Source of the DNA: Bacteroidota bacterium
Lineage (GTDB): Bacteria > Bacteroidota > Ignavibacteria > UBA10030
Assembly: GCA_025454835.1 (NCBI GenBank)
Contig: JALONQ010000002.1
Coordinates: 62,001-126,000, forward strand
Reading direction: 5' to 3'
Length of the DNA: 64,000 nucleotides
In this document: one piece after another, positions 26,979 through 34,254 of the stretch
How the letters are laid out: the number at the start of each line of letters is the position of its first letter
How positions within the stretch are numbered: position 1 is the stretch's first letter
Translations under genes and position numbers: made by a program
The notes under the pieces: model-generated
The model's database searches: none
The model's input: only the letters and a program-made list of their open reading frames with translations
What the model was told of the DNA's origin: nothing

Positions 26979-28385
26979 TCACCGTTGACGGACGCGCACA
27001 TCCCCCGACTTCACCTCCACGGTGAAGCTCGACGTACCCCCCGCCACCGTACCCGTCGCCAGCGAACCGCTTCCGAAGTTGTCGACCTCGAGCGGAAGGT
27101 CGGTACGGATGGAACCGTATTCCGATTTGAGCCGCACCTTGCCCGCGTAGCCCTTTGGCACGGCGATGTCGACGTTTCCGTAGGAGTTACGCACGTTCAA
27201 TTTTGCGGGCGACTTCTCGAGTTCGAGTGAGACCGTGTTGCTGGAATTGGATACGAGGACGTTCGCGGCTCTGAGCGCACGAACGCGGATCTGCGTGTAG
27301 GCTGTTTCGCTGTTCCAATCCCCCTCGACCCGATCGGCCTCGACGGTAGCACTTTGCGCCCGGAGGTCGACATCGCCTTTGATGTCGGCCAGATCCATCC
27401 TGGAATACGAGTTGTCGATCCGAACGTCTCCGACCGCCTGTTCGAGGAGCAGCCGGCCCGACTGGCCGCGGATAACGATCGGCATGCCCCGCGTCCCGGA
27501 GACGTTGGCGATCTCCACCTCGCTGTAGGGGGCGTTCACGTCGATGCCATCCACCGTCCGCACCTGGACCGATCCGCTCTTGTCCGTGACACGGACGACA
27601 CCGGCGACGCGCTCGATCGTCACGCGCGAGTAATCGGCGTCGACCTCGACGTCGCCCTTGACGTCGGAGAGGCGCACCGTGCCGCTCTTGTCGTTGACCT
27701 TCACATTGCCGACGACCTGAGCCATGGTCACTCCGGCATAGTCGGCTTCGGCTTCGAGCGCACCTTTGAACTCCTTGATGGTCAACTCACCGCTTTTCGC
27801 CTCGACCCGCAGATCTCCACCGGACCGTTCGACCTTCGTATGTCCGTAGTCGTTGCGGATCACGGACAGGCGCGGGCAGTCGCGCACTTCCACGGTGTTG
27901 CTTTGACCTTCGAGACGAACCTCTCCCTCGACGCCCGCAAGGCTGATCGTGCCGAAACGGAGGTCGGTCATGAACCCGTTCTTGCGGGGGATCATCACCA
28001 CACCGCTCACCTCCATCTGGCGATACCCACGGAAATTGAACAGCCGTTTGAGCCAGGATCCGGAGACGACCTCGTTGGCATCGGGCTCACGATACGTGAT
28101 CGTGATCTTCTCCCTCGAACTGTCGACCGAAAGCTCGACATGCTTCAGATACCGTTCCTCCCATTCTTCGTCGGAGGAAGAGACAACGATGCGCAGCTGG
28201 ACCTTGACGGCAGCCTCGTCCCACGTCTTGAATTCGATCTCGGAACCGCGAAGACCGCGAACCTCAACCTCTTGAGCGGGTCCGACGGGAATGCGCCGTT
28301 CGAGTGTGCGGTCCCTTTCTACAACGGGGTCGTCGGGACCGGCCATCAGCAGGATGGCCGCGGCGATGACAGTGAGTGACGTCAT
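26979..28385 (-). CDS. Exported DUF4097-type beta-solenoid protein
   Basis: 468 residues with a short N-terminal hydrophobic export signal (LTVIAAAILLMAG, about 4-16). The bulk is a repeating strand-turn pattern of about 20-25 residues: RVEAKSGELTIKEFKGALEA, VNDKSGTVRLSDVKGDVEV, VTDKSGSVQVRTVDGIDVNA and RAQSATVEADRVEGDWN. This is the DUF4097/adhesin-like right-handed beta solenoid. Function is unknown. Its start overlaps the upstream anti-sigma-like gene by 4 bp, placing it as the third gene of an ECF sigma operon and a probable envelope-stress output or sensor partner (inference). Confidence 0.85.
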   Translation of the reverse strand: MTSLTVIAAAILLMAGPDDPVVERDRTLERRIPVGPAQEVEVRGLRGSEIEFKTWDEAAVKVQLRIVVSSSDEEWEERYLKHVELSVDSSREKITITYREPDANEVVSGSWLKRLFNFRGYRQMEVSGVVMIPRKNGFMTDLRFGTISLAGVEGEVRLEGQSNTVEVRDCPRLSVIRNDYGHTKVERSGGDLRVEAKSGELTIKEFKGALEAEADYAGVTMAQVVGNVKVNDKSGTVRLSDVKGDVEVDADYSRVTIERVAGVVRVTDKSGSVQVRTVDGIDVNAPYSEVEIANVSGTRGMPIVIRGQSGRLLLEQAVGDVRIDNSYSRMDLADIKGDVDLRAQSATVEADRVEGDWNSETAYTQIRVRALRAANVLVSNSSNTVSLELEKSPAKLNVRNSYGNVDIAVPKGYAGKVRLKSEYGSIRTDLPLEVDNFGSGSLATGTVAGGTSSFTVEVKSGDVRVRQR

Positions 28386-28903
28386 AGGGTGATCTCTCCT
28401 TGTTCGATCATACTCTGTAACACGACCAGTTTCTTGGCATACAGGTCCCGAAGTCGGGCTCGCTTCACCGGCGAGATATCTCCCGAGGTCATTTCGGCCC
28501 GCAGTGACGCAATCCCTTCGTCGATCGATCGCAGTTCATCCTGTCGCGACCGGAAGACCTCTTGTCGGGGAACGACGGCATCCTGCGTGCTCACGGTGTG
28601 GGCCTTTGGAGGCTCGGAGGCCAGAATCTCAAACTCCCGGATCGCCGACCGGTATGCCTGGTCCACGCGCAAGGCCGTTGGACGGCTGTTGTCCAGCATC
28701 CGTTCGACCGTGCTGAAGGTCCCGAATCCTGCCAGCAGCAGGAGCACGCTGGCCGCCATGCCAAGCGCGAAGCTGCGGCGTTCGAGCACGAGCCAGGGCC
28801 GGCCTTGCGGGCGGATCCGAGACTCAACGCTCGTCCACATGCGGCGGCGCGACTCGGCCGACGGCGCGTCGGATGGTGCGTAGAACTGTTCAGGATCGAT
28901 CAT
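28382..28903 (-). CDS. Single-pass membrane protein, probable anti-sigma factor
   Basis: 173 residues: cytoplasmic N-terminus (1-45), one membrane helix (FALGMAASVLLLLAGFGTF, about 46-64), and a periplasmic, helical, charged C-terminus (70-173). The zinc-binding HxxxCxxC of ZAS-type anti-sigma factors is absent. The call rests on topology and on 4-bp overlaps with the sigma factor upstream and the DUF4097 gene downstream. Confidence 0.6.
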   Translation of the reverse strand: MIDPEQFYAPSDAPSAESRRRMWTSVESRIRPQGRPWLVLERRSFALGMAASVLLLLAGFGTFSTVERMLDNSRPTALRVDQAYRSAIREFEILASEPPKAHTVSTQDAVVPRQEVFRSRQDELRSIDEGIASLRAEMTSGDISPVKRARLRDLYAKKLVVLQSMIEQGEITL

Positions 28904-29451
28904 CGTGCAGCCCTTTCCTGGGACAATCCTGACCGCAAGAGGGACTTGGTGCGGGCCAGGATGGTGCGCGAATGGCTTTCTTCGATGGAGAGCATCCCGG
29001 CGATCTCGCGATGCGAGAAGCCCTCCACTTCGTAGAGGATGAAGACCGAGCGCTTCAGATCGTCGAGGCGGTCGAGCGCCTCCCGAAGCGTTTCAGACCA
29101 CGGCAGCCGCTCCGATTCGTCGTCTCCTACGACACTTGACGCCTGCTCGACCGGTTCGAATGCGAGGATCTTTCGGCGGCGGAGGTCGGTCCGCATTTCA
29201 TTGATGCCGATGCGGAAGAGCCATGTGGCGAACGACGAGCGTCCGTCGAATTCCCGCAGATGCTGATAGGCTTTGACGAAGGCTCGTTGCACCCATTCTT
29301 CGATATCGGAGGACGAACCTGAGAATTGCGCAAGAAAGCGGTACAGTCCGGCGACATGATGCTCATAGAGCGACCGAAATGCGGTGTGGTCGCCGGTCCG
29401 GCTTCGTTCGACCCAACGTGGTTCGTCGGGATGTGCGCTTGGATGGGGCAT
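28900..29451 (-). CDS. ECF-family RNA polymerase sigma factor
   Basis: 183 residues. Region 2: FRSLYEHHVAGLYRFLAQFS, DIEEWVQRAFVKAYQHL (a variant of DxxQEVF) and FATWLFRIGINEMRTDLRRR. Region 4: RLDDLKRSVFILYEVEGFSH then REIAGMLSIEESHSRTILAR, a normal helix-turn-helix. Heads a three-gene operon with the anti-sigma-like and DUF4097 proteins; the targets are unknown. Confidence 0.94.
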   Translation of the reverse strand: MPHPSAHPDEPRWVERSRTGDHTAFRSLYEHHVAGLYRFLAQFSGSSSDIEEWVQRAFVKAYQHLREFDGRSSFATWLFRIGINEMRTDLRRRKILAFEPVEQASSVVGDDESERLPWSETLREALDRLDDLKRSVFILYEVEGFSHREIAGMLSIEESHSRTILARTKSLLRSGLSQERAAR

Positions 29452-29581
29452 TTCTGGTTAGATGTACAAGAAGAGCGAAGCGCTACAGCGATGCACAGAT
29501 GATACGGAGGATCAAGCGGCGAAGTTCGTCACGCGAAGCATGGAGTTGCCGAATTGAGGAGTTTTTGATATCTTTTTGGTG

Positions 29582-29603
29582 GGCGACCGCAAGTCGCCTT
29601 TTT
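29582..29603 (+). terminator. Orphan plus-strand intrinsic terminator
   Basis: GGCGAC (29582-29587), loop CGCAA, GTCGCC (29593-29598), then TTTTT (29599-29603). It is a textbook terminator for plus-strand transcription, yet no plus-strand gene lies upstream; the 130 bp before it (29452-29581) is the sigma operon's upstream region and shows no convincing reading frame. It may end a small RNA or block antisense reading. Confidence 0.6.
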
Positions 29604-29711
29604 CAATCCCCGCCTGCGTCCTAGATTTTTGCTTGGCGTTGCACGCAGTTTGAGAAGTGGGATGCCGCTTACGCGGCAATTGTATTGGGCCTTCGGCTGG
29701 CGAGGACGGAC

Positions 29712-29942
29712 TGGTTAGAGCGTCCCGTGCTCAAGAACAACTTGAAAACGGGACAAGTCCCGTGCACGAGGCGGTTCTCTGAACGGGATGAATCGGAATC
29801 ATGATCGCCCTCGACCACTCGACTCGCACCTCGGCTCGGCACGTCCTTGGCAAATTCGGCGAACGTGCCAAGCTCGGTGCTCGCTCGTGGCTCGGGGCAG
29901 GCTCCGTCCCTCGATAAGCTCGGGACTTGGTCGTGGGTTCGA
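29712..29942 (+). pseudogene. Interrupted tRNA-CAU copy A
   Basis: Three blocks identical or nearly identical to the intact tRNA at 30412 appear in order: TGGTTAGAGCGTC (29712-29724, D-loop to anticodon stem), TCGGAATCATGATC (29793-29806, anticodon hairpin, one base different) and GGTCGTGGGTTCGA (29929-29942, variable loop to T-loop). Between them lie inserts of about 68 and 122 bp with palindromes. The 5' acceptor half and the 3' end are missing. It cannot make a normal tRNA. Confidence 0.75.
29835..29875. repeat. Palindromic element inside tRNA copy A
   Basis: CTCGGCACGTC (29835-29845) with ACGTGCCAAGCTC (29863-29875) forms a hairpin around an 17-bp loop. The same two arms, in reverse orientation and with a different loop, occur at 58876-58920, so this is a dispersed element rather than tRNA sequence. 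Confidence 0.65.
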
Positions 29943-30052
29943 GTAGAGAGGTATTGGCAAGCATTGATCGTCATTTTTCACTCTGCACTGGTTCAGTCTG
30001 CGCGCTGAGAAGTTGATTATCGCTTCGCGATATTTGTAGTGTGCATCCTGCT

Positions 30053-30353
30053 GGCGGGGTAGCTCAGTCCGTCTCCCGTTCCGGGAGACGAGATCTCGTC
30101 CTCGCCTACGGCGAGGACGGACTGGTTAGAGCGTCCCGTGCTCAAGAACAACTTGAAAAAGGGACAAGTCCCGTGCAGAAGGAAATCGCTGAACGGGATG
30201 AATCGGAATCATAATCCCCCTCGACCGCCTTCGGCGTCTCGGGGCAGGCTCCGGTTCCCGCCACCCTTCGACAAGCTCAGGGTCGGCGGGACTCTGAATT
30301 CGGCAGCCACTCGTCGCTTCGCTCCTCGTGGGCCGAATTCGAGCGTGGGTTCG
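30053..30353 (+). pseudogene. Interrupted tRNA-CAU copy B
   Basis: Blocks matching the intact tRNA: GGCGGGGTAGCTCAGT (30053-30068, acceptor 5' strand and D arm), TGGTTAGAGCGTC (30123-30135), TCGGAATCATAATCC (30203-30217, complete anticodon hairpin) and CGTGGGTTCG (30344-30353, T arm). Inserts of about 54, 68 and 126 bp separate them; each contains perfect palindromes such as CGTCTCCCG/CGGGAGACG, CGTCCTCGCC/GGCGAGGACG and GAATTCGG/CCGAATTC. The T-arm 3' half and the acceptor 3' strand are missing. Confidence 0.78.
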
Positions 30354-30411
30354 TGGTGATCTGCCCTAACTAGACAATTTTCATTTTACAATTTTCAATT
30401 TTCAATGTTAC

Positions 30412-30485
30412 GGCGGGGTAGCTCAGTTGGTTAGAGCGTCGGAATCATAATCCGTAGGTCGTGGGTTCGAATCCCTCCCCCGCTA
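30412..30485 (+). tRNA. tRNA with CAU anticodon (elongator Met, or Ile2)
   Basis: 74 nt, all four arms fold. Acceptor GGCGGGG pairs with CCCCGCT (first pair G-U). D stem GCTC/GAGC. Anticodon loop ATCATAA gives CAU at positions 34-36. T loop TTCGAAT. Discriminator A at 30485; CCA is not fully encoded (A-C-A follows). Two U-U mismatches remain, at 27-43 and 50-64. CAU may be read as Met or, after lysidine modification, as Ile2. The G1-U72 acceptor resembles elongator Met tRNAs of Bacteroidota/Chlorobi as I remember them, so Met is favoured. It is the only undamaged copy in the locus. Confidence 0.9.
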
Positions 30486-30543
30486 CAAAATGCCGCGCCC
30501 CCAATTCAATCGATTTCCGGTTGATGGGGGCGTCGGCATTTTG
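30486..30543 (+). terminator. Terminator after the intact tRNA
   Basis: AATGCCGCGCCCCCA (30489-30503) pairs with TGGGGGCGTCGGCATT (30525-30540) with a single bulge, followed by TTTG. Directly after the tRNA 3' end. Confidence 0.7.
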
Positions 30544-30625
30544 TACTGGATCAGGAGGAGCGAACACTTCGCTGGACCCGACGAAAGTCGGGGCCAGTCC
30601 ACGTCGACGCATCGCGTCGACGGAA

Positions 30626-30643
30626 AATCCCTCCCCCGCTACA
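30626..30643 (+). pseudogene. tRNA 3'-end fragment C
   Basis: AATCCCTCCCCCGCTACA repeats the last 18 bases of the tRNA region exactly (T arm 3' strand, acceptor 3' strand, ACA). It is preceded by three small perfect hairpins (CCCGAC-GAAA-GTCGGG inside CTGG/CCAG, and CGTCGACGC/GCGTCGACG). Confidence 0.7.
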
Positions 30644-30645
30644 GA

Positions 30646-30693
30646 CAACACAAAACCCGCTTCTGGCGATGCCGCCGGGCGGGTTTTGTGTTG
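30646..30693 (+). terminator. Strong 15-bp hairpin terminator
   Basis: CAACACAAAACCCGC (30646-30660) pairs perfectly with GCGGGTTTTGTGTTG (30679-30693). It closes the fragment C segment. The following 100 bp (30694-30792) shows no gene. Confidence 0.65.
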
Positions 30694-30792
30694 CAAAAGC
30701 CAAACACCAAGTGACAAAAATCAAGGAAACCAGAAGAGAATCAAACGACAAACAGCAAGCCTAGGTTTGTCTCTGAGACACTTCTCCGTTGC

Positions 30793-30964
30793 AGCGTCGG
30801 AATCATGATCCAGCCAGCCGAAGGCCTACTACTAATGATCGCGAAGCGATCGACTTCACTCTCCTCTACTACGAAGTCGTCGGCCAATTCTCCCTTGGAT
30901 CGGGTTCGAATCCTTGGCCCGAGCGGCGAGCTCGTCGAGCCGCCGAGGGCCCTCCCCCGCTACA
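30793..30964 (+). pseudogene. Interrupted tRNA-CAU copy D
   Basis: Blocks: AGCGTCGGAATCATGATCC (30793-30811, anticodon arm), GGGTTCGAATCC (30902-30913, T arm) and CCCTCCCCCGCTACA (30950-30964, acceptor 3' strand). The inserts are about 90 and 36 bp. The second is one hairpin, GGCCC...GGGCC around CGGCG...CGCCG, placed in the T-arm 3' side. The 5' half of the tRNA is missing. The anticodon block has the same base change as copy A. Confidence 0.72.
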
Positions 30965-31030
30965 CCAAGGCAGAAGTGAGGAGTCAGAAGGTAGAAGCGA
31001 TAGCCCAGGTCTGCCGCCTAGGCCGAGCCG

Positions 31031-31954
31031 CTATTCGCTCTGGACATCCAGCCACGCCAGCATCTCGCGAACGCTTCCGGTGGCCAACGCAAGACATGTA
31101 TCCGCGGCACCGTAGTAGATGTTGACGGTGTCGCCGTCGGCACCGAGGGTGTACCCGCACGGGAAGACCACGTTCCCCACATCGCCGCGTTGCTCGTACA
31201 CCTCTCCCGGTCCGAAGACCCACTCAGCTCCCCGCTGGAGGAGTTGCTCCGGTCGTTTCAGGTCAAACAGCGCCAGGCCAAGCCGGTAGACACACCCGGC
31301 GCACGACTGCTTGACGCCGTGGTAGATCACGAGCCAACCACGCGGCGTCTCGATCGGAGGGGGCGAGAGGCCGATCTTGTTCGCATCCCACCAAGCCCCC
31401 TTGCGGGCTTGCAGCATCATCGCGTGCCCGCCCCAGTTCTTCAGGTCCGGCGAATACGAGATCCACATGTGCGCTCGCGGAGCGCTGACAGGCCGATGGA
31501 TCAGTGCCCAGTTCCCGTCGATCCGGTGCGGCAGAAGCGCCGCATCTTTGTCTTCCGGCGCCATGATCACGCCGAGGCGATCGAATGTGCGAAAGTCAGT
31601 CGTGAGAGCCATGGCCACGCCGGGACCGTCTCTCGTGAAGGCCGTGTAGACGATCGCATACTTCTGCAGTTCCGGAACAAACGTGATACGGGGATCTTCG
31701 ATACCCCAGAGTTCTTCCGGATGTCGGTCCGGATCGGGCGTCATCGTCGGCCTCGCGTCGATCTGCCATCCGTCAATGCCGTTGGCCGATCGGGCAGCGC
31801 ATAAATGTGACAGGCCGCGCCGATCCTCCACACGACACAGCAAGAGCGTCGTGCCATCCTGCAGTAATGTGGCGCCGGCATTGAAGACGCTGTTGACCGG
31901 ATAGGGCCACTGGGCAGCCGTCAGGATGGGATTCTGCGCATGACGGCGGAACAA
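31031..31954 (-). CDS. GH130-family glycosidase/phosphorylase
   Basis: 307 residues from TTG 31954, two bases after the upstream gene's stop; this gives the family-like N-terminus FRRHAQNPILTAAQWPYPVN (the upstream frame to 32107 lies inside the neighbouring gene). GH130 enzymes phosphorolyse or hydrolyse beta-mannosides. Motifs: FNAGATLLQDGTTLLLCRVE, GIEDPRITFV (catalytic Asp in the ED pair), PHRIDGNWALIHRP, and WLVIYHGVKQSCAGCVYRLG. Whether it is a phosphorylase or a hydrolase depends on phosphate-binding residues that I cannot assign. Coupled to a GT4 enzyme, suggesting a mannoside-type product or store (inference). Confidence 0.88.
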   Translation of the reverse strand: MFRRHAQNPILTAAQWPYPVNSVFNAGATLLQDGTTLLLCRVEDRRGLSHLCAARSANGIDGWQIDARPTMTPDPDRHPEELWGIEDPRITFVPELQKYAIVYTAFTRDGPGVAMALTTDFRTFDRLGVIMAPEDKDAALLPHRIDGNWALIHRPVSAPRAHMWISYSPDLKNWGGHAMMLQARKGAWWDANKIGLSPPPIETPRGWLVIYHGVKQSCAGCVYRLGLALFDLKRPEQLLQRGAEWVFGPGEVYEQRGDVGNVVFPCGYTLGADGDTVNIYYGAADTCLALATGSVREMLAWLDVQSE

Positions 31955-31956
31955 CT

Positions 31957-34254
31957 CTAGATGCTGACGGTCGGTAGTGATAAGGCCCTCACAAGGTGTT
32001 GTGTCTGCTGCGAAACGCGCAGTTCCAGCAGGGACTGCAGAAATGCCAGGGTTGACTCGGCACCTTGGTTCTCGTTGGGCCGGTCGGGGTGGAGGCCGTC
32101 GCGGCATCCGCCGGTGGTCGGGTCATACAGCGGAAGCTTGAGGTCGTTCCTTCCGAGGAACCAGTCAAATGCGCGACGCGCCTCCTTGTTCCAGCGCTGG
32201 TCCCCGGTCGCCTTGAACGCTTCGAGACACGCCGACACCATCGTTTGTGCTTCGACCGGCTGTTGGTCGAAACGGGCCCGCTCGCTCCCGAACTCATAGA
32301 ACCCATTCGACCCGATCGGCACGAAATGCCCCTCACTCGAGCGCTGGAGGACGGCCAGCCACTCAAGCGATTCCAGGCCCGCCGCGGTCATGGCCGCATT
32401 CGGGATCGTCCTGCCACAGATGAGAAGCGCATGCGGCAACGCCGCGTTGCAGTAGGTGAGCCTTCGTTCGAACCATCGCCAGTCGTCCGTTCGATCGGCT
32501 TCGTACGACCTCATCAGGCGGCCGGCCAATTCCTCCGTCACTTGCAGCGCCATGCGGTCCCCGGAGAACTTCTGCAGATACTCCGAGATACCGATGAGGG
32601 CAAAGGCCCAGGCCCGCGGACTTGTCGTGGCCAGGATAGAGGGAAGCGCCTGCTCGAACAACCAACCGGCCATGCTGTTCAATGACGGCGTCGTTGAGTG
32701 ACTCAGGACGGTCCCCAACGCCCAGAGGGCGCGGCCGTGGCTGTCGTCCGAACCCGCGTCGTCGAGCCACGTTCTCCGATAGTCCATGAGATTCCGGAAA
32801 CGTTTGTTCTTCGGGTTGAACGCAAACCCCAGATACGCAAGATAGCGGGACGCGAGCCCAAGGTGCTTCTCATCGCCGAGCTCGGCCTCAAGCACGCTGA
32901 CGAGTAGTGCACGGGCGTTATCATCCGTCGTGTAACCGTGAGCGTAGTTGGGCACCGCAAAGAGGGCGTGCTGGAGGATCCCGGTCTCATCCGTCATGGC
33001 GCGCAGGTGGTCGGTGAGCAGCGGGGGCAATTCACCGGGGTATCGATCGAGCGCCTTGGCGGCAAACCCCGGCGGGACGTAGTGCCGGCGTTCGGCGCGT
33101 GCCCGATCGAAGCTCTCCATGTAGCGTTTCGCCACCTCGCTCCAGATCATCGTGCGTCCGTAGAGATACGCCCGCTTGCGCATCGCGTGTCGCTCCGAGT
33201 CGTTCCCGAGCAGTTCGATCACCTGCTCTGCCAGAGCGTCCGGATCTCGGAACGGCACGAGGACCCCTCGCCGCTCGCTGAGCATCTCCTGCGCGTACCA
33301 ATACGGAGTGGAGACGATCGCCTTGCCGGCCCCGAGACTGTACGCCAGGGTGCCCGACACGATCTGCGCCTCGTTGAGGTAGGGGGTGATATAGATGTCT
33401 GCTGAGCCGATGAACTCGACCAACTCGTCGAGACTGACGAAGCGATTGTAGAAGATGACATGGCTTTCGACCCCCATCTGTTGCGCCAGCCACTGCAGTG
33501 AAAGGCGATATGTCTCGCCATCATGCTGGAGCACGTGCGGATGCGTCGCTCCGACCACGATGTAGACGGTGTCGGGGAATCGTGCGACGATCGCGGGGAG
33601 TGCTGAGATGACCGTCTCGATGCCTTTGTTGGCCGACAGCAGTCCAAAGGTCAGCAGCACCGTCCTCCCTTCGACGCCGAAGAGGTCCTTGTGAAAACTC
33701 GGGTCCACAAACGGCATATCGGGGATGCCGTGTGGTATCTTGTCGATCTTGTCCGGCGCGATATGATAGACGTTGCGCAGGTAGTTAGCCCCCCGTTCGC
33801 TCATGACGATCAGTCGATCGGAGAGAGCCGCCACTTCTTCCAGGACCGCCCGCTGGTCGGGCGAGGGTTGATCGAGCACCGTATGCAGGGTCGTCACGAC
33901 CGGCATCCGCAGATCTCTGAGGAGCGTGAGCACGTGGCTGCCGGACTTTCCGCCGAAGATCCCGTATTCGAATTGGAGACACACGAGATCGACGTTGTTG
34001 ATGTTCAGGAAGTCCGCGGCGCGCCGGTACGAATGGACGTCCTTTTCCGACAGCTCAAAGCGCACCCGCTCCGGATAGTCATACCCCTCAGCCAGATCAT
34101 TGACGGGTACGGCAAAACACGTGGTCGCAGGATACACCGTAGCCACTGATTCGCAAAGATCGCTGGTGAATGTGGCGATCCCGCATTGACGGGGTGGATA
34201 GTTCCCCACGAATGCGATCCGGCTGACCGTTGAAAGTTGGCCCTTGTGTTTCAC
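31957..34254 (-). CDS. GT4 glycosyltransferase fused to a helical (alpha/alpha) C-terminal domain
   Basis: 765 residues. Residues 1-390 are a GT-B, family 4 transferase: VGNYPPRQCGIATFTSDL at the N-terminus, HTVLDQPSPDQ, IPHGIPDMPF, LLTFGLLSANKGIETVI, and the donor-binding ITPYLNEAQIVSGTLAYSLG with the usual E replaced around YLNEAQ. Residues 400-740 form an all-helical toroid similar to glycoside hydrolase or glucosaminidase folds: YTTDDNARALLVSVLEAELG, DDSHGRALWALGTVL, TYCNAALPHALLICG, PVEAQTMVSACLEAFKATGD. The second domain could trim or bind the glycan. GH130 follows immediately, so the two genes are an operon. Donor and acceptor are unknown. Confidence 0.85.
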   Translation of the reverse strand: MKHKGQLSTVSRIAFVGNYPPRQCGIATFTSDLCESVATVYPATTCFAVPVNDLAEGYDYPERVRFELSEKDVHSYRRAADFLNINNVDLVCLQFEYGIFGGKSGSHVLTLLRDLRMPVVTTLHTVLDQPSPDQRAVLEEVAALSDRLIVMSERGANYLRNVYHIAPDKIDKIPHGIPDMPFVDPSFHKDLFGVEGRTVLLTFGLLSANKGIETVISALPAIVARFPDTVYIVVGATHPHVLQHDGETYRLSLQWLAQQMGVESHVIFYNRFVSLDELVEFIGSADIYITPYLNEAQIVSGTLAYSLGAGKAIVSTPYWYAQEMLSERRGVLVPFRDPDALAEQVIELLGNDSERHAMRKRAYLYGRTMIWSEVAKRYMESFDRARAERRHYVPPGFAAKALDRYPGELPPLLTDHLRAMTDETGILQHALFAVPNYAHGYTTDDNARALLVSVLEAELGDEKHLGLASRYLAYLGFAFNPKNKRFRNLMDYRRTWLDDAGSDDSHGRALWALGTVLSHSTTPSLNSMAGWLFEQALPSILATTSPRAWAFALIGISEYLQKFSGDRMALQVTEELAGRLMRSYEADRTDDWRWFERRLTYCNAALPHALLICGRTIPNAAMTAAGLESLEWLAVLQRSSEGHFVPIGSNGFYEFGSERARFDQQPVEAQTMVSACLEAFKATGDQRWNKEARRAFDWFLGRNDLKLPLYDPTTGGCRDGLHPDRPNENQGAESTLAFLQSLLELRVSQQTQHLVRALSLPTVSI

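Follow-up and report, generated by a model that had tools for sequence, protein, structure and literature searches.

Palindromic inserts are known from Rickettsia as the Rickettsia palindromic elements. In fungal mitochondria, mobile endonuclease open reading frames (ORFs) put an end of their own in place of that of the host gene they enter, as described for atp6 of Allomyces and for atp6, atp9, cox2 and nad3 of Glomus (PMC3630166), and double-hairpin elements of fungal mitochondrial DNA were proposed to be mobile (work cited in PMC5910586). SegB of the T-even phages is a free-standing GIY-YIG homing endonuclease encoded beside transfer RNA (tRNA) genes and cutting inside them; it drives tandem tRNA-nuclease repeats, and no isotype preference is reported for it (PMC13096335). 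Homing endonucleases, with GIY-YIG among the families, also accompany group I introns in bacterial tRNA genes, and intronless homing by free-standing enzymes was described as well (PMC3984707). Here we analyzed a 64-kb stretch (the window, G000:C33:62001-126000) of a 3.2-Mb genome in 47 contigs, G000, in which an intact tRNA gene with the anticodon CAU stands within an array of partial copies of itself that are broken up by hairpin inserts. The array is probably the fossil record of repeated invasions of this one tRNA gene.

A single tRNA was found in the window by ARAGORN (CAU, 30412-30486), and the Rfam search of positions 27000-34000 gave an RF00005 match of 67.9 bits at 30412-30485. The blocks of the copies were placed by ungapped mapping onto the intact tRNA, which gave four partial copies, two upstream and two downstream of it, all on the plus strand and with their blocks in order (Table 1). 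ARAGORN, Rfam and the mapping thus agreed with the initial annotation on one intact CAU tRNA among four partial copies. The blocks had also been described as exact and in the right order; the order held, and the exactness held almost everywhere, with one mismatch mapped in each of the blocks 29793-29806 and 30793-30811. The 3' end is missing from both upstream copies, which stop at tRNA base 59 (outer, which also lacks the first 16 bases) and 58 (inner), and the 5' end is missing from both downstream pieces, which begin at base 59 (inner) and 24 (outer). Bases 42-45, 43-48 and 43-51 are absent between the blocks of the three longer copies. Because the inner upstream copy ends at 58 and the inner downstream piece begins at 59, this pair meets exactly, with bases 1-58 preceding the intact gene and bases 59-76 following it, barring the inserts and the lost bases 43-48.

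Table 1. Positions of the intact tRNA gene, the partial copies, their inserts and the repeats in the window
Feature	Positions	Strand	Description
Intact tRNA gene, anticodon CAU	30412..30487	+	ARAGORN, Rfam, ungapped mapping
Outer upstream copy	29712..29942	+	tRNA 17-29, 28-41 (1 mismatch), 46-59; blocks 29712-29724, 29793-29806, 29929-29942
Inner upstream copy	30053..30353	+	tRNA 1-16, 17-29, 28-42, 49-58, without 3' end; blocks 30053-30068, 30123-30135, 30203-30217, 30344-30353
First downstream fragment	30626..30643	+	tRNA 59-76 (3' end)
Outer downstream copy	30793..30964	+	tRNA 24-42 (1 mismatch), 52-63, 62-76, without 5' end; blocks 30793-30811, 30902-30913, 30950-30964
Insert, outer upstream copy	29725-29792		folding z -3.9
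Insert, outer upstream copy	29807-29928		folding z -2.1
Insert, inner upstream copy (double hairpin in D-loop)	30069..30122		two hairpins around GACGAGATCTCGTC; folding z -6.3
Insert, inner upstream copy	30136-30202		
Insert, inner upstream copy	30218-30343		
Insert, outer downstream copy	30812-30901		folding z -1.4
Insert, outer downstream copy	30914-30949		folding z -1.0
Repeated segment	29699..29816		second copy 30110-30226, 96 and 93 percent in two parts
Inverted repeat abutting the 3' side of the intact tRNA	30484..30545		22-nt arms, 82 percent
Perfect inverted repeat right behind the fragment 30626-30643	30646..30693		15 nt

The initial annotation had suggested that the hairpins might be cut out of precursor RNAs, in which case the interrupted copies would be functional and their processing, for example by RNase III as with the intervening sequences of ribosomal RNA, would yield a split tRNA. 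Many inserts do lie in loops or arm junctions and fold well, the blocks are nearly exact, and intact Asn, Glu and His tRNAs are missing from the 38 found in G000 (G001, of the same genus, has all three). Assembly gaps, an intron (Asn) or copies that are only found interrupted are possible reasons for this shortfall; the tRNA-Asn may be the intron-bearing one of locus L262, and the rest may lie in assembly gaps. However, each copy in the window lacks at least one end and so could not give a whole tRNA, and many fragments elsewhere are halves. The proposal gained no support, and we regard functional split tRNAs as highly improbable, although the intact gene nearby is no argument against them, because intact genes served as the starting point for finding the arrays.

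The same pattern was found across the genome when exact blocks of at least 11 nt were searched within 700-bp flanks of intact tRNA genes. In G000, 18 of the 38 tRNA genes had cognate fragments, amounting to 42 same-strand blocks (645 nt) against 1 on the opposite strand, with a mean of 1.43 blocks when the genome's other tRNAs were used as queries. In G001, 36 blocks were present at 19/37 tRNA genes, with 1 on the opposite strand and a value of 3.06 when other tRNAs were the queries. Cognate fragments were also present in smaller samples, at 4/12 (G009), 4/15 (G040) and 1/17 (G033) tRNA genes. An array peculiar to one locus was ruled out by the counts in G000 and G001. For the CAU gene itself, 9 blocks lay on its own strand and none on the opposite one; with the totals over the 38 genes, this bears out that the block matches exceed chance, a point on which the initial annotation had staked its reading.

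The ends of these fragments were sorted by side. In G000 and G001 together, 20 fragments with the 5' terminus lay upstream and 0 downstream of the intact gene, and 13 fragments with the 3' terminus lay downstream and 1 upstream. Random duplication followed by decay would not sort fragment ends in this way. Repeated duplication of a tRNA hotspot had been among the initial proposals, and in its fuller form it holds that the tRNA was duplicated in tandem by slippage and that the spare copies decayed through small mobile palindromes, with no cassette or nuclease in the window array. Tandem repeats do occur: in G040 (L190, L198), five 59-bp units of tRNA-Val 1-16 plus a hairpin precede tRNA-Val, and four 89-bp units, in which a 17-nt hairpin replaces the anticodon arm, precede tRNA-Gly. 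Whole interrupted copies on one side were seen at L017 and L213, the window has no nuclease, and its segment 29699-29816 is repeated at 30110-30226 with the same insert at tRNA 27-28. Yet duplication predicts neither the sorting of the ends nor the entry of an old leader into a fragment (see below), and in most of the arrays inspected the likeness between copies ends, by eye, at the tRNA ends, tRNA-Gln of L038 excepted. We therefore consider it a rather unlikely account of the array.

A GIY-YIG ORF lying between an intact tRNA-Ser and its downstream copy in G046 was the starting case for the nucleases. The family survey gave 212 GIY-YIG matches in 32 genomes, UvrC included; loci were taken down the E-value list with UvrC-sized frames skipped, and not picked by their neighbours, except for four G001 ORFs taken earlier for their tRNAs (L184, L211, L222, L223). 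The 123 distinct ORFs classed were assigned to types A to D by sequence, first manually and afterwards according to which of four profiles scored best. Type A comprised 69 distinct ORFs. Assembled flanks of 300 bp or more on each side were available for 52, and for 46 of the 52 an intact tRNA lay within 300 bp. When contig-end cases were counted, all type A ORFs near a tRNA (55/55) were on its strand. The corresponding counts for ORFs with flanks were 0/12 for type B, 0/22 for type C and 5/12 for type D, all five by tRNA-Asn, and GIY-YIG proteins in general were ruled out as tRNA neighbours by the 0/34 of types B and C. Six type A ORFs were exceptions (L297, L306, L345, L329, L301 and L307): L297 and L306 come from arrays that contain another nuclease ORF, Rfam matched an interrupted tRNA spread over 165 bp in L345, L329 runs into a masked stretch, and the Rfam search for a tRNA beside L301, L307, L313 and L329 returned nothing. 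The type A nucleases have about 80 amino acids, and their nearest solved chains are UPF0213 proteins and Slx1. PF01541 was matched by 22/22 proteins of the alignment A2, which has ten invariant columns.

Beyond the nuclease, a piece of the same tRNA was present in 68 of the 75 far sides that were assembled in the family and phylum sets combined, 54 times with the expected end. When the tRNA precedes the nuclease, the piece was found in 42/47 cases (absent in L375, L347, L392, L360 and L264), of which 32 extend to the 3' end of the tRNA and 2 contain its 5' end; when the nuclease precedes the tRNA, it was found in 26/28 (absent in L327 and L222), of which 22 begin at the 5' end and 0 hold the 3' end. 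There were 3 far-side matches on the opposite strand. Since the far side holds the displaced end of the same tRNA, the nuclease is, on this evidence, seated inside a split tRNA gene that appears to have been made good by a second half. A tandem form was also found: in the single-contig genome G164 (L385), three units of nuclease plus fragment stand before one intact tRNA-Ser.

These counts also bear on the view that the arrays are scars of ordinary integrative elements, that is, of islands or phages with a tyrosine integrase that restore the 3' end at tRNA attachment sites. The 3' fragments that reach the tRNA end do lie downstream, like attR remnants. But upstream 5' fragments, 20 in number, are no rarer than these, and the displaced part is upstream in 26/28 loci in which the nuclease precedes the tRNA, 22 with the 5' end. 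A tyrosine-integrase island duplicates one fixed end, usually the 3' end; here the 5' and 3' forms are both common, and, judged by the fragment ends, integrative elements are a quite improbable source of the arrays.

At an E value of 1e-10, 124/198 genomes of the phylum matched the type A profile, a number that is an upper bound for type A because this threshold also admits types B and C. The phylum set, consisting of the 28 best-scoring further loci, contained 33 type A ORFs, and 21 of the 28 with flanks were within 300 bp of a tRNA; those near a tRNA were all on its strand (24/24), and most of the seven others were second ORFs of an array. The genomes of other lineages were the ones to which a search with the adjacent ORF 31031-32107 had led; 13/20 had matches, and 30 loci contained 10 type A ORFs, 6 of them with the full architecture. 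The genomes with these six belong to KSB1, Kryptoniota and Nitrospiria, one each. In the same sample, a type B ORF of G375 (L411) lies 26 bp from an ARAGORN call of tRNA-SeC, the sole case near a tRNA out of 20 type B and C ORFs.

The breadth of the arrangement also bears on the possibility that a region rich in repeats was wrongly assembled in this genome, which derives from a metagenome. Contig ends of G000 (C2, C46 and C15) do fall in such arrays. Against this, the same architecture recurs in many independent assemblies, three of them single-contig (G164, G191 and G246), and genomes of the same genus agree. We find assembly error unlikely as a general cause, and very improbable as the explanation of this array.

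In a tree of 82 nucleases, the amino acid of the associated tRNA changed 18 times, compared with a mean of 53 (minimum 47) in 300 shuffles, and the isoacceptor changed 34 times, compared with a shuffled mean of 65.2 and minimum of 59. The tree was built from few columns, and 41/78 forks are open. Nuclease lineage appears to track tRNA identity, a link that is independent of the deep forks. None of the 82 rows of the tree is a GIY-YIG gene beside the CAU tRNA of the window in relatives; the Kryptoniota genome has a GIY-YIG gene beside another CAU tRNA, which is initiator-like by our reading.

Same-site comparisons were used to judge which copy is the resident. In G024 the leader of tRNA-Asn runs into the intact gene. 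In G009, of the same genus as G024, the last 100 bp of this leader match the leader of a broken Asn copy (bases 1-23) at 92/100, compared with 53/135 columns for the leader of the intact Asn gene, which lies 190 bp further on and has an unrelated leader. Behind, 1.3 kb of flank match at 87 percent, and a hairpin then breaks the 1-23 piece. At lower identity, the flank and the first 23 tRNA bases of the Asn gene of G021 match the piece by BLAST (70/110 versus 55/126 columns). At the clear Asn site the old leader runs into the broken copy, so that the fragment is what remains of the earlier resident and the intact gene arrived later, which matches the cases described from fungal mitochondria (PMC3630166).

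We propose that a cassette carrying a complete replacement tRNA gene, or its missing half, enters the resident gene, and that the 5' part of the resident would then stay upstream or its 3' part downstream, the restored gene becoming the working copy. The dead halves would subsequently gather small palindromes, chiefly double hairpins. The cassette would home by means of a free-standing nuclease that makes the entered tRNA gene good. The sequences compared show the direction rule, the nuclease-tRNA-fragment architecture, the link between lineage and isotype and the entry of the resident leader into a broken copy (clearly at one site, weakly at a second). We infer the cutting of the tRNA gene by the nuclease, homing as the mechanism and the mode of hairpin entry. 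A nuclease was presumably once present in the window array too, as judged from the sibling loci, because none remains in the window.

Of the described systems, the fungal mitochondrial ORFs are alike in that the endonuclease arrives with a replacement end and the native end is left beyond it, with a GIY-YIG enzyme in the case of atp9 (PMC3630166). Here, by contrast, bacterial chromosomes and tRNA genes are concerned, both 5'- and 3'-restoring forms occur, the nucleases have only about 80 amino acids, their lineages follow tRNA identity and hairpins occupy the displaced, dead part. That a GIY-YIG enzyme can be encoded next to tRNA genes and cleave within them has a precedent in SegB. The comparison was made with its published motif alone, RAWTSGAAC (GTTCSAWTY on the other strand); by our reading, the T-loop sequence that spans the 58|59 split in the window tRNA fits this motif. 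SegB is a phage gene, and neither displaced tRNA halves nor hairpins are described for it in the available text (PMC13096335). Group I introns in bacterial tRNA genes share the endonuclease-driven entry (PMC3984707). Judged by titles and abstract openings, the open papers searched yielded no report of a nuclease-tRNA-fragment arrangement in bacterial chromosomes.

Several observations weigh against the proposal of repeated invasion. No GIY-YIG trace was found in the window array (best domain E 1.4); an endonuclease gene at the target gene is present in the relatives and not in the window. Among the 18 fragment-bearing tRNA genes of G000, tRNA-Leu(CAG) alone adjoins a GIY-YIG match, and the other type A ORFs of this genome are in C15 (a tRNA-Ser array at a contig end), in C17 (a contig end) and, in degenerate form, by tRNA-Pro(CGG). 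The type A ORFs L301, L307 and L399 have no tRNA nearby. At genes with pieces on both sides, the innermost pieces meet exactly at the window gene only (1/5 in G000, 0/3 in G001), the remaining ones showing gaps or overlap, and the one-sided copies of L017 and L213 are complete and ordered. Simple nesting also misfits some details of the window, because the copies 29712 and 30793 have a variant base in common and only the 29712 copy has the insert at 27|28. As for the same-site comparisons, the common flank of Ser(CGA) in G026 and G021 ends by the fragment with a weak likeness of the leader (68/107 versus 55/127 columns), and Ala(CGC) gave no clear assignment of the leader.

We lean somewhat towards the wider view that a family of minimal GIY-YIG nucleases exists, present in the Bacteroidota-level group that was sampled and in several further lineages, and that every lineage of this family has become a specialist for a single tRNA gene. 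Loop entry would bring a replacement half, the displaced half would be the scar, and turnover would proceed by replacement; the window array would be the remains of several rounds, and the double hairpins would sit where the nuclease had cut and protect the dead halves from being cut again. Few genes are held to be as stable as those for tRNAs. If this view is true, many of them have been repeatedly replaced by selfish cassettes in a large bacterial group with their function kept, small orphan GIY-YIG proteins of type A gain a testable role and interrupted tRNA copies an origin, and the nucleases form a natural collection whose members may recognise individual tRNA genes.

The copies of the window contain seven inserts within the 36-126 bp given in the initial annotation. 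Five folded clearly better than shuffled sequence (z -2.1 to -6.3), as expected from inserts that had been called full of perfect hairpins; this wording was too strong for the outer downstream copy, because its two inserts (z -1.4 and -1.0) did not fold clearly beyond shuffled sequence. A recurrent type is a double hairpin around GACGAG-CTCGTC, with stems that vary and are still paired. Its core pattern had 9 matches in G000, compared with 0 for the reversed control, and 7/9 were within tRNA arrays, five of these seven being seeds and two (the starts of C2 and C46) perhaps being the ends of one array. In contrast to the fungal double hairpins, 12/14 places found in G000 by the covariance model fall in tRNA arrays, partly by construction, because the model was built largely from array members. 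Double hairpins were also found outside tRNA loci in G001, G004, G009 and G037. The Rickettsia palindromic elements were set apart by description, as the present inserts lie in spare tRNA copies and there are several per copy.

The junctions of the inserts were examined after 45 raw events had been reduced to 38 by dropping inserts longer than 130 bp, the G033 rows and the G001 Trp, Thr and Gly rows (tRNA motif in the insert); one event was counted in two nested forms. At 22/38 junctions no tRNA base was gained or lost, and 18 of these 22 inserts have T as their first and A as their last base. The remaining initial proposal, insertion of elements into tRNA genes, is supported in two layers: hairpin inserts that interrupt the dead copies, often at such clean junctions, and, as the relatives suggest, cassettes with a whole tRNA gene, there often together with a GIY-YIG nuclease, that split the resident gene. 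Some insert sites recurred in different genomes. Site 40|41 of tRNA-Arg(UCU) was used in a downstream copy of G000 and an upstream copy of G001, and site 35|36 of tRNA-Ser(GCU) in G046, in G009 and, with another hairpin, in G001. Locus L334 of G009 has two tandem nuclease units whose double hairpins have the same second and a different first hairpin, as if a stem had been swapped. A Y1 transposase was considered as the mover of the hairpins; two places were found, and a link was not seen by eye. In REPIN/RAYT systems an inverted hairpin pair is mobilised by a linked Y1 transposase; here a pair of hairpins is present and the genome has two Y1_Tnp places. At one place in G000 (L238, C30) a RAYT-like Y1 transposase ORF adjoins, by eye, repeats of another kind.

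Rfam returned, at gathering score, no RNA family except tRNA in 27000-34000, hence none in the inserts and no group I intron; introns were found elsewhere only near type D ORFs. These were RF00028 matches of 81-97 bits (L262:2021-2295, L283:1002-1274, L333:409-671 and L344:1506-1765), and at L344 halves of tRNA-Asn lie on both sides of the intron. In L276, L297 and L327 the nuclease frames appear to continue into the tRNA at the C-terminus, for example as ..IRGVAQPG by tRNA-Pro. The inverted repeat that abuts the intact window tRNA is terminator-like by our reading. The array is flanked by two ORFs on the minus strand, named by reading only, a putative sigma factor at 28900-29451 and a putative glycosidase at 31031-32107. 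The leader of the intact tRNA (30374-30411) is AT-rich and simple, and matches to leader plus tRNA were found in several genomes of the family.

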